From positions 1 to 34,793 of the forward strand of contig NZ_JAPEHT010000022.1 in NCBI RefSeq assembly GCF_028823615.1: a stretch of DNA of 34,793 bases, written 5' to 3'. A program made the position numbers and the translations under genes. The notes beneath the pieces are model-generated. The model did no database searches. It was not told the DNA's origin and was given only the letters and a program-made list of their open reading frames with translations. The stretch is from Planococcus sp. A6. GTDB taxonomy: Bacteria; Bacillota; Bacilli; Bacillales_A; Planococcaceae. Positions 24,058-26,718 of the stretch are shown in pieces (positions within the stretch are counted from its first letter, which is position 1; every line of letters begins with the position of its first letter).

Positions 24058-25273
24058 CTACTCGATTTTCTTCTTGCGTTTCATCAGCTTCCTCTTTTTC
24101 TTTTCAGAAACCAAAGGCTTCGGCGCTGGATTGTAGTCATCGGCATACATGCCGGTATAGGATTGATACCATTTGAATAAATGCACGAGAACTACTTTGA
24201 GAACTGCATAGGCCGGTATCCCGATGATGACGCCGGGCAAACCGAATAAGCTCCCAGCTGTCAGCAGCACGGCGATGATCGTCACCGGATGGATATTCAA
24301 GCTGCTTCCGAGGACAAGCGGCTGCACAACGCGCCCCTCCAATGTCTGTTCGATAATGAACACAATCAGCACTTTCAAAAGCATGAGCGGTGGATGCAGG
24401 ACAATGGCGATGATGAAGATCGGAATGACCGCGATAAAGGTCCCAAGAAATGGAATCAAATTCAATGCGCCCGCCAAAACCCCAAGCGTCAGCGCATACT
24501 CCAGGCCGATGATGCTCAAGCCGATCCAGAACATCAGCCCGACAAAAAATGCGACGAGCAGCTGGCCACGGATATACTGGCTGATCTGCATATTCATTTC
24601 GCGCAGCAATCGGTAGGTCTGTTCCCGCATATGCGAAGGCACAAATTTCATAATATGATACGGCAGGTGATGGCCGTCCTTCAATAAATAGAACAAGATG
24701 AAAGGCGTCGTGATCAAGGCCAAGACGGTCGTCGACACGATGCCGAATACATTGCCGATGCCGCTCCCCGCCGACTTGATCAGTAATCGTGGCCGTGATG
24801 CCGCCTTCTTCCCCGGTTAATTGTTCCTGCAGCCCTGCCAAAAATTCACTTTCAAAAAATGTATCGATTTTGGCGATAAAGCTGGCTAAATAATCCTGCC
24901 AGTTTTCCAGTAAGTCCAGTGATTGTTCGCGGATTACCGGGATCAAAGCCGTAACGCCCCATGCGAGCAAGCCGAGAATCACTACGAAGACAATCGTAAT
25001 GCCGCCGAGTCTGTTGATTTTTTTCGTTTCCATCCAATCAATCAAAGGGCTTAGCAAATAATACAATACCCCGGCCATGATCAGCGGCAGCCCCATGACG
25101 CTGATCAATGCAAATAGCGGTGCGAAAATGAAGCTGATTCTTGGCAACAGCAGGATGTTCACTTGGATCAATAAAAGAATGACCAGTACGGATACCGCTT
25201 TATTGTTCAACACCCACCTCACGAACCACGAAGCGGCAAGGCTGAACGCCGTTTTGTTCTTTTCCGGCTCCAT
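24058..25273 (-). pseudogene. AI-2E family transporter, frameshifted
   Basis: AI-2E/YdbI-like permeases have about eight transmembrane helices and export small molecules or exchange ions. The 5' frame, from the ATG with GAGGGTG upstream, gives the first three or four helices and the long extracytoplasmic loop, ending its sense at ATITDQV. The 3' frame resumes at SAGSGIGNVFGIVSTTVLALITTPFILFYLLKDG and runs through the conserved C-terminal half, LLREMNMQISQYIRGQLLVAF and GVIIGIPAYAVLKV, to a basic tail. The frames meet near 24770-24780, inside a region where homologues have additional loop residues, so a small frame-changing deletion is likely. Its size is uncertain because this loop varies. 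The original 5' frame stays open for another 190 codons in meaningless sequence. Confidence 0.82.
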
Positions 25274-25427
25274 CGAACCCACCCTCTCCAAAAACACAAT
25301 TGGTTTTGGCATATCCCAGACAAGGTGCGCCGGCAGCAGTGGCAGAGTTCGTGATTACAGATAAAGTACCCCCATCCCTGCCATTTCACACCGCTCCGTC
25401 CGTTGAGAATCAGAACTTTTTTAAGAC

Positions 25428-25466: not shown

Positions 25467-26153
25467 TTATCTTTGCAGCCGTCCGACGAATTCATCCAGA
25501 CGCTCCAAGGTATCGATGTGTTCATTGCAGGTTTCGTTGTTTTGGCAAATATAGTTGCCGCGCTTGATGAACTGATCCTGAGTGGATCCTTTCGTTTTCG
25601 CGATGAACATGCCGACCTCACTGTGGCGGTTGCAGATCGAGCAAATGCCTTGTTTCGAACTGCGCGTAAAGCTGCCGTGGATTCCCTGCAGCTGCCCGTC
25701 TTGTTCCGTTACCAAGTACATCACATTCGAGCTTTCAATCCACCCTAAATAGGATATACGTGTAAAGTCCAGTGACTCAAGCTTCGGGCCTTTGAGCTTT
25801 TTCGCTTTTGGAAACAGTTTCTTCAATCCAGCAGGCGACACTTGTTTGAACGGCACAAGATAAGCTTCCAATTGCTCCAAATAAGCATCAGCTTGCGCTT
25901 GATCTGCTATTTCGATCAATTGCCCAAGCAGCGATGACTGTTCTTCAGTAATTAATGGAAACAAGCCGGAAACCTTTTCCTGCGCCAAATGCCGCAGTAC
26001 CTCCACTACTTCCCGGTCGTTGCTCGACGCCTTGCCATTGACCAGGATTTTTGCCTGGTTTTTGATAAAGTTAAACTGGTCATTGCGGATGAATGCTTCC
26101 ACCCGTCTGCCAGAAATGTTGTTCTCAGCACGGTTCTGTTCTGTTTGCGTCAT
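25467..26153 (-). CDS. FusB/FusC-family EF-G-binding protein
   Basis: The 228-residue protein has an N-terminal helical EF-G-binding domain (about 15-110, with FIRNDQFNFIKNQAKILVNG) and a C-terminal zinc domain with C171 and C174 (CSIC) and C203 and C208 (CQNNETC). That is the four-cysteine treble clef of FusB/FusC/FusF. Family members bind elongation factor G and free ribosomes stalled by fusidic acid. Chromosomal versions are common in Gram-positive bacteria. The ATG has AAGGAG nine bases upstream, but that site lies in the 3' arm of a stem (26164-26197). A 30-codon ORF lies just before it. Translation is therefore probably controlled by upstream ribosome stalling. Confidence 0.88.
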   Translation of the reverse strand: MTQTEQNRAENNISGRRVEAFIRNDQFNFIKNQAKILVNGKASSNDREVVEVLRHLAQEKVSGLFPLITEEQSSLLGQLIEIADQAQADAYLEQLEAYLVPFKQVSPAGLKKLFPKAKKLKGPKLESLDFTRISYLGWIESSNVMYLVTEQDGQLQGIHGSFTRSSKQGICSICNRHSEVGMFIAKTKGSTQDQFIKRGNYICQNNETCNEHIDTLERLDEFVGRLQR

Positions 26154-26163
26154 TGAAAGACAC

Positions 26164-26197
26164 TCCTTATAAAGTAAATTCTTTTATTTAATAAGGA
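26164..26197 (-). promoter_or_regulatory. Hairpin sequestering the FusB-family ribosome site
   Basis: On the minus strand, TCCTTAT at the start of the 5' arm pairs with ATAAGGA in the 3' arm. The stem continues for 15 positions with two mismatches and closes on a four-base loop. The 3' arm contains the AAGGAG Shine-Dalgarno of the FusB-family gene. There is no T-run, so it is a translational and not a transcriptional element. Confidence 0.7.
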
Positions 26198-26230
26198 AGC
26201 CGTGTGCTGAAATGACGCGTGATGGGCGAT

Positions 26231-26323
26231 TCAATTCTTGCTTGCCCCACACAAAGGATCGCCATTCCATACAGGCTTTGCGTGAGTCGTTCCTGACGCT
26301 GACAATTGATTACGGATTGTCAT
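26231..26323 (-). CDS. 30-codon leader peptide upstream of the FusB-family gene
   Basis: This ORF begins MTIRNQLSAS and ends GDPLCGASKN before TGA. AAAGGGGTG lies seven bases before its ATG, a stronger site than many full genes here. It stops 33 bases before the hairpin that masks the FusB-family ribosome site and 77 bases before that gene's ATG. Its last third overlaps GGCGAT, which can pair with ATCGCC just past its stop, and AAGCC, which can pair with GGCTT at the foot of the masking hairpin. Alternative structures are therefore possible. The role as a leader peptide is inferred from position and structure; a stray small protein is the alternative. Confidence 0.6.
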   Translation of the reverse strand: MTIRNQLSASGTTHAKPVWNGDPLCGASKN

Positions 26324-26380
26324 CTGATATCACCCCTTTCGCTGCAATTTTTCTAATCTCAAATTAAGCTATTGAATTGC

Positions 26381-26635
26381 CTACGCCTTGCTGGAGTAAG
26401 CCAATTGATGATCGACAAACACTTTGCACTCGATCGTAAAAAAACCGCCGACAGTGGCTTTCAAGTCTTTTATGCCTTCGGAGGTTTTCAGCTTGCCATT
26501 CAACTCCCCGCCAAAACTGAGCCCCAGATTTTCATCCTGCAATTGGCCGTCCACGAATAACTTTTCGCCTTCAAACCATCGATTTTCAATGACGATATGT
26601 CGGCCTTCATGTGTGAATTCAAAGCTTTTCTTCAT
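26381..26635 (-). CDS. 84-residue protein of unknown function
   Basis: This small soluble protein is rich in beta-type segments (HIVIENRWFEGEKLFVDGQL and TVGGFFTIECKVFVDHQLAY). AAGGAGGG stands five bases before its ATG. It has one cysteine and no motif I recognise. The pattern of short strands and Gly turns suggests a small beta-sandwich. It lies upstream of the leader ORF and FusB-family gene on the same strand, about 58 bases from the leader. No terminator was seen between them, so read-through transcription is possible. Confidence 0.7.
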   Translation of the reverse strand: MKKSFEFTHEGRHIVIENRWFEGEKLFVDGQLQDENLGLSFGGELNGKLKTSEGIKDLKATVGGFFTIECKVFVDHQLAYSSKA

Positions 26636-26718
26636 TTAAGCCCTCCTTGGGAAATCCAACTTATCTTCCACTATCATCCATTTCTGCTTTAAGTTTATCA
26701 TAATAGTCCGTCAATAAA

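Follow-up and report, generated by a model that had tools for sequence, protein, structure and literature searches.

The window, that is, the whole stretch of 34,793 nucleotides from Planococcus sp. A6 that was analysed (contig NZ_JAPEHT010000022.1), carries on its minus strand a gene for a FusB/FusC-family protein and, upstream of it, a short leader ORF with a ribosome site of its own (Table 1). An earlier note on this DNA had described the 30-codon ORF and its strong ribosome site, and both coordinates and letters proved right. The FusB-family identity given there agrees with the matches of the product to Pfam PF07299 (86.7 bits) and PF16571 (45.6 bits), both above the cut-offs; according to Pfam and an alignment to S. 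aureus FusB, the EF-G-binding N-terminal domain and the treble-clef zinc finger are both present. The protein matched solved FusB/Far1 chains (e.g. 4adn, 4e4b, 9ghc) and is 31% identical to S. aureus FusB of pUB101 over 212 aligned positions. It scored far under the NCBIfam cut-offs of the resistance models, with 117.7 bits for the fusB model (cut-off 375 bits). The gene had been taken as chromosomal, and indeed its 96% orthologue lies on a contig of 3.26 Mb. A second FusB-family gene of the source genome (locus L001) is without such a leader.

As previously proposed, a stem is predicted to bury the AAGGAG of the FusB-family gene. It comprises 15 positions, with two mismatches and one G-U pair as counted by eye, and its 5' arm begins at 26198, 32 nt past the leader stop. 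Compared with shuffled sequence, folding gave z -3.57 for the masking region and z -2.33 for the 206-nt leader; the conservation among relatives described below is a stronger test than these z-scores. The two alternative pairings pointed out before, GGCGAT with ATCGCC and AAGCC with GGCTT, both exist and are referred to here as helices 2':3 and 1:4. Three further helices are new with respect to that description: helix 1:2, the start hairpin P0 and a start-codon clamp.

Scanning positions 26100-26700 for promoters gave one site only, on the plus strand and within chance, and no terminator was found in a scan of the same interval. Directly upstream of the leader lies an 84-aa ORF (26381-26635, minus strand) with no Pfam or NCBIfam match. 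At 24058-25312 (minus strand), a membrane-protein gene, presumably for an AI-2E-type transporter, is broken into two overlapping reading frames at about 24.7 kb; the break is a frameshift, either real or from sequencing.

Table 1. Features and helices of the FusB-family locus in the window.
Feature	Sequence	Position	Strand	Remarks
Leader ribosome site	AAAGGGGTG	26339-26331	minus	spacing to ATG 7 nt
Leader ORF		26323..26231	minus	30 codons, peptide MTIRNQLSASGTTHAKPVWNGDPLCGASKN
Start hairpin P0	TGACAAT with ATTGTCA	26300..26322	minus	26322-26316 with 26306-26300; covarying pairs
Segment 1	CACGCAAAGCC	26274..26284	minus	partner is segment 2 or segment 4
Segment 2'	GGCGAT	26258..26263	minus	abuts segment 2; partner segment 3
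Segment 2	CTTTGTGTG	26248..26256	minus	partner segment 1
Segment 3	ATCGCC	26225..26230	minus	immediately past leader stop
Clamp, 5' arm	GCGTCATT	26211..26218	minus	pairs with 26154-26147
Segment 4	GGCTT, continuing into anti-ribosome-site strand CTTCCTTAT	26191..26201	minus	
FusB-gene ribosome site	AAGGAG	26168-26163	minus	predicted to be masked by stem
Clamp, 3' arm	AATGACGC	26147..26154	minus	includes ATG
FusB/FusC-family EF-G-binding protein gene		26153..25467	minus	228 aa
Helix 1:2	CACGCAAAG with CTTTGTGTG	26284-26276 with 26256-26248	minus	best conserved helix
Helix 2':3	GGCGAT with ATCGCC	26263-26258 with 26230-26225	minus	
Helix 1:4	AAGCC with GGCTT	26278-26274 with 26201-26197	minus	5 bp only
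Start-codon clamp	GCGTCATT with AATGACGC	26218-26211 with 26154-26147	minus	also encloses FusB start codon

Distribution of the element

Two covariance models were built, R1 from alignment A2 (26 cores) and R2 from alignment A3 (51 cores). A2 held 26 of 30 cores, the degenerate L029 and the near-duplicates L004, L007 and L009 being left out; A3 held 49 of 51 picked cores (without L126 and L155) together with L160 and L162. R1 recognised the element in 29 of the 46 genomes of the genus and in 101 of the 261 genomes of the order, spread over 9 of 19 genera including Planococcus itself, and R2 recognised it in 89 of 398 genomes of the class (26 of 145 genera); the members used for model building match by construction. 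When R2 was run on a sample of the phylum, 9 of 398 genomes matched, all nine within the class. An exact-pattern scan of named genomes matched at least 119 stretches, and among the matches listed were Bacillus spizizenii, B. inaquosorum, B. paralicheniformis, Metabacillus, Neobacillus, Paenibacillus, Cohnella, Sporosarcina, Ureibacillus, Brevibacillus and others. R1 also matched the element in the Pseudalkalibacillus and Paenibacillus cellulosilyticus loci, and gave no match on the FusB loci of pUB101, Priestia, Listeria and E. faecalis. No Rfam 15 family reached its gathering threshold in the window, and a permissive Rfam 15 search of six loci returned four matches below gathering, none of them at the element.

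A FusB match was obtained in 45 of the 46 genomes of the genus. A HAK-type leader ORF precedes 27 of the 33 FusB loci of the genus (L003-L035, the window's own included) and is absent or degenerate in the other six (L017, L023, L028, L029, L034 and L035); it is kept where FusB is only 61% identical to that of the window (L032, L033). In one genome (G029:C13:782436-783114) the window-type FusB looks broken, since it lies in two overlapping open pieces, and its leader is still matched by R1. The earlier note had proposed a comparison among relatives: the leader ORF and the pairings were found to be conserved and to covary. The element of the window is genuine and conserved, and it belongs to the attenuator type.

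Covarying helices and the two partners of segment 1

In A3, helix 1:2 was paired in 51 of 51 sequences, helix 2':3 in 97.3% of cells and P0 in 75.9%; in these 51 sequences overall, 91.8% of cells were paired compared with 33-45% in slid controls. Nine pairs had changed on both sides. None of 500 shuffles reached the observed double-change count, percentage paired or covariation score, and 8 of 500 reached the observed number of pair types; the copies are related, not independent, and both the shuffles and the slid controls leave this relatedness in place. The core letters were near-invariant. The junction between helices 1:2 and 2':3 measured 0-1 nt in 210 of 243 rows, and the loops of the core helices, with medians of 13 and 20 nt, suit an H-type pseudoknot (these rows still count L099, a mirror image on the plus strand that was removed to give the working set of 242 copies). 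Copy by copy, complementarity between segments 2 and 3 was weaker, with p<=0.05 in 147 of 243. Judging from the sequences, the abutting helices 1:2 and 2':3 could form an H-type pseudoknot. The idea that these two helices exclude each other was dropped, as they abut and can coexist in this way, and the pairings could not be fitted to a simple erm 1-2-3-4 scheme.

Segment 1 may also pair with segment 4, the strand at the base of the masking stem. The analyses of this pairing and of folding energies cover 230 of the 242 copies, 12 without a clear downstream start being left out. The complementarity of segments 1 and 4 extended over at least 7 bp in 205 of the 230 copies and at least 9 bp in 161, and reached p<=0.05 against shuffled partners in 206. 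Across copies, segment 1 has two conserved and mutually exclusive partners, segment 2 or segment 4, the 1:4 pairing of the window being a weak one. The earlier proposal of an erm/cat-type attenuator was right in recognising an attenuator-like element; its erm-type topology was not supported, segment 1 being the strand that would switch between 2 and 4.

The start-codon clamp was surveyed in 29 loci, 27 of the genus and 2 of another genus, and its pairing reached p<=0.05 in 19, all in the genus. The window and the seven loci most closely related to it have the letters GCGTCATT:AATGACGC, and the remaining eleven clamp loci mostly have ATGTGTCATT:AATGATACAT; since the letters differ in step between subclades, both arms of the clamp changed together.

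The RNA is kept and the peptide varies

We surveyed the reading frame in the 242 copies after choosing the best leader start without regard to frame. In 239 copies a leader ORF served by a ribosome site stayed open through segment 1, and over the 242 copies segment 1 was read in a HAKP-type frame in 196, in an SCKA-type frame in 42 and otherwise in 4. The SCKA-type leaders terminate right after segment 1 in 32 of 42 cases, and their 20 named carriers are Paenibacillus (18) and Cohnella (2). Of the 196 HAKP-type leaders, 145 begin 39 nt upstream of segment 1, and of the 42 SCKA-type ones, 38 begin 34 or 37 nt upstream of it; whatever the peptide, the distance is mostly 34-39 nt. Given this variation in frame and peptide, what is kept throughout is the start distance and the RNA, not the peptide. 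In the 212 copies filtered for the HAKP frame, segment 2 was read in frames 0, 1 and 2 in 143, 53 and 14 copies, respectively (it was not found in 2), meaning that segment 2 is kept as RNA. THAKP or SHAKP occurred in 178 copies of this in-frame set and a histidine at codon 14 in 153, and the residues preceding segment 1 varied widely. Segment 1 in the HAKP frame varied mostly at third positions, so the peptide may still have a role. The specific stalling peptide supposed at the outset was not borne out, as the peptide and even its reading frame vary among copies. THAKP as an invariant stalling peptide was likewise abandoned: earlier sets had selected that frame, and the unfiltered set varies.

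Genes downstream of the element

FusB lies downstream in 202 of the 242 non-identical copies. In 97 there is no recognised CD3324 gene, and 95 of these have FusB within 200 nt of segment 1; in 105 a CD3324-family gene stands between the element and FusB. CD3324 was found alone in 14 copies, 7 of which had less than 800 nt of sequence left, with an acetyltransferase in 10, with an alpha/beta hydrolase in 7, with a metallo-beta-lactamase-fold protein in 4 (the name of the fold is our own reading) and with a hormone-sensitive-lipase-like esterase in 2; one copy had an acetyltransferase and two had no recognised gene. These labels rest on seeds that we chose, and representatives of FusB, CD3324, both hydrolases and an acetyltransferase were checked, the CD3324 representative matching NF040785 with 114 bits. 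The genes downstream of CD3324 may not share its transcript. In Domibacillus antri (L221 1310-2388) the element is followed by CD3324 and then by a YebC/PmpR-family gene, maybe a chance neighbourhood. Three loci (L142, L153 and L154) have extra sequence between the element and the CD3324 gene, and the masking stem is therefore displaced or lost there. No paper on the "CD3324 family protein" was found in the open-licence literature.

Folding energies and ribosome position

We compared the two pairings of segment 1 by nested folding, which cannot score a pseudoknot. Opening the downstream ribosome site cost on average 7.24 kcal/mol with 1:2 enforced versus 5.63 kcal/mol with 1:4 enforced (n=230), and enforcing 1:4 made it easier in 168 copies and harder in 53, the cost being equal in the remaining 9. 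The 1:4 state was the more stable one in 169 of the 230, and a ribosome-site hairpin of about 7 bp persisted beside 1:4 in the folds shown. In the window the two states were nearly equal (-63.8 and -63.4), and opening the site together with the AUG cost 11.6 in the 1:2 state compared with 9.1 in the 1:4 state, a difference of 2.5 kcal/mol. Its mask cost 8.3 kcal/mol to open and changed little over ribosome positions (7.1-9.4), and segments 2 and 3 paired as a nested helix cost more than 7 kcal/mol.

We then considered a ribosome on the leader. With its leading edge at segment 1, the mean change in the opening cost was -0.74 (shuffled leaders, +0.05), below the copy's own shuffles in 147 of 230 and above them in 77. 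With the ribosome on segment 1 it was +0.72 (shuffled, +0.12), above the own shuffles in only 124 of 230 and below in 101, and on segment 2 it was +0.51 (shuffled, +0.08). The contrast between a leading edge at segment 1 and a ribosome on it amounted to 1.46 for natural leaders versus 0.06 for shuffled ones. Free of ribosomes, natural leaders masked less than shuffled ones (5.75 versus 7.03 kcal/mol). Placing a ribosome at every codon of 98 copies gave only weak effects (left out were the duplicate L103, the unresolved L135, L142 and L154, and L153). The folding comparison that the earlier note had suggested thus gave an effect on the ribosome site of the expected sign, but a small one: the predicted direction of the switch would rest on folding energies of about 1.5 kcal/mol.

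A proposed switch set by the leader ribosome

On balance, we lean towards the view that the window holds one copy of a Bacilli-wide cis-regulatory element in which the ribosome on the leader decides the partner of segment 1. During normal elongation ribosomes would run through the leader, and the emerging segment 1 would re-pair with segment 2; segment 4 would then stay with the ribosome site, the OFF state. After an early stop, at about leader codons 2-9, the leading edge would at most touch segment 1, which could then pair with segment 4; the mask would shrink, and FusB, or CD3324 and FusB, would be translated. Because the copies have no peptide common to all of them, what is sensed is likely to be elongation arrest in general, which would include EF-G held on the ribosome by fusidic acid or a natural equivalent, and FusB would clear the held EF-G. 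Induction, and EF-G as its signal, we infer beyond the folding evidence. It is possible, and we put it forward tentatively, that the element is a peptide-independent elongation sensor throughout the Bacilli, in which the state of a pseudoknot depends on where the first ribosome stands, and FusB, which clears EF-G, is induced by EF-G arrest; with the same reserve, a set of protective genes, FusB as well as CD3324-family, hydrolase and acetyltransferase genes, may be switched on whenever elongation stops.

Several other explanations have to be weighed. If the element were a classical erm/cat-type attenuator, a drug and the nascent peptide would stall the ribosome at a defined leader codon and so free the downstream site. 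The frequent THAKP or SHAKP and the histidine at codon 14 would fit a stall some 9-10 residues in, and the conserved distance of the leader start speaks in its favour; we nevertheless consider it unlikely, given the 42 of 242 unfiltered copies that read segment 1 in another frame into unrelated peptides, the three frames of segment 2 and the diverse residues preceding segment 1. The polarity could also be the reverse, with 1:4 repressed, the 1:2 pseudoknot active and leader translation activating the gene. That 168 of 230 copies are harder to open in the 1:2 state, and that ribosome-free natural leaders mask less than shuffled ones, makes this scheme rather less likely still, even though 1:4 is the more stable state in most copies, several minimum-energy folds contain it together with the ribosome-site hairpin, and 53 copies open more easily with 1:2.

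The near-invariant core letters, the short junction and the loop lengths would all be expected of a pseudoknot recognised directly by a ligand or a protein, to which the leader ORF would be secondary. This we hold to be improbable: nearly all copies have a leader ORF, served by a ribosome site, that runs on through segment 1, and the invariance can be accounted for by the two roles of segment 1, as partner of 2 and as partner of 4. It seems very improbable, finally, that the conserved leader merely sets a low basal level without induction, as the strong mask of the window might suggest, since two covarying conserved partners of segment 1 are hard to explain without switching. Should the leader ribosome indeed choose the partner of segment 1, 89 of the 398 genomes sampled from the class would carry a conserved RNA element that matches nothing in Rfam 15, and attenuation would read the position of the ribosome instead of a stalling peptide. 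FusB-family proteins, known mainly as clinical resistance factors, would be tied to a standing chromosomal stress circuit, and the native role of the chromosomal ones would become testable.

Comparison with known systems

The attenuators of erm and cat genes combine a leader ORF, a ribosome acting as sensor, alternative pairings and the masked site of a resistance gene related to translation. The element of the window resembles them in its leader ORF with a ribosome site, its predicted masked site and its alternative pairings. It differs in that peptide and frame are not conserved throughout (HAKP in 196 of 242), segment 1 chooses between 2 and 4, a pseudoknot is possible and a start-codon clamp is found in part of the genus.

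We found no description of the architecture and spread of the element in the open-licence literature. Nothing relevant to "THAKP" was among the literature matches listed, and a term search of the main texts of PMC2965389, PMC8632094 and PMC2864571 returned no fusB, fibronectin or elongation factor G. In three other sources, FusB is reported to clear EF-G held by fusidic acid (PMC8161019), a leader peptide upstream of fusB is named in clinical work (aj1-LP-fusB; PMC12561750), and it is proposed that fusB induction probably involves translational attenuation, stalling by fusidic acid releasing the fusB ribosome site (the review PMC12190993). As described there, the staphylococcal system is alike in the gene family downstream, the short leader ORF and the proposed release of the ribosome site. 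However, the pUB101 fusB leader encodes an unrelated peptide (MLKDITYLKLLDLEYKMLCS, our own reading) and gave no R1 match, whereas the present element occurs in 26 of the 145 genera that were sampled from the class, and often includes CD3324.

The FusB homologues of Enterococcus faecalis (L161 1350-1496) and Listeria monocytogenes (L159 1375-1520) have short leader ORFs of their own, whose peptides we read as MIRQTLSLSKTHEVVCH and MQTKLHCSRLSNNGFRIV, respectively, and which R1 did not match; the Listeria leader has a better fold than its shuffled counterparts (z -3.52) and the Enterococcus leader does not (z -0.45). FusB genes may have acquired leader control on several occasions. Among published RNA motifs, the nearest one that we found is uORFC-6-1 (PMC8632094). 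According to that paper, it is a uORF with a covarying RNA before a ribosome-rescue gene of Bacillales, for which stalling is proposed, and it differs in that the downstream gene is hflX; the likeness to the present element drawn here is one of description.
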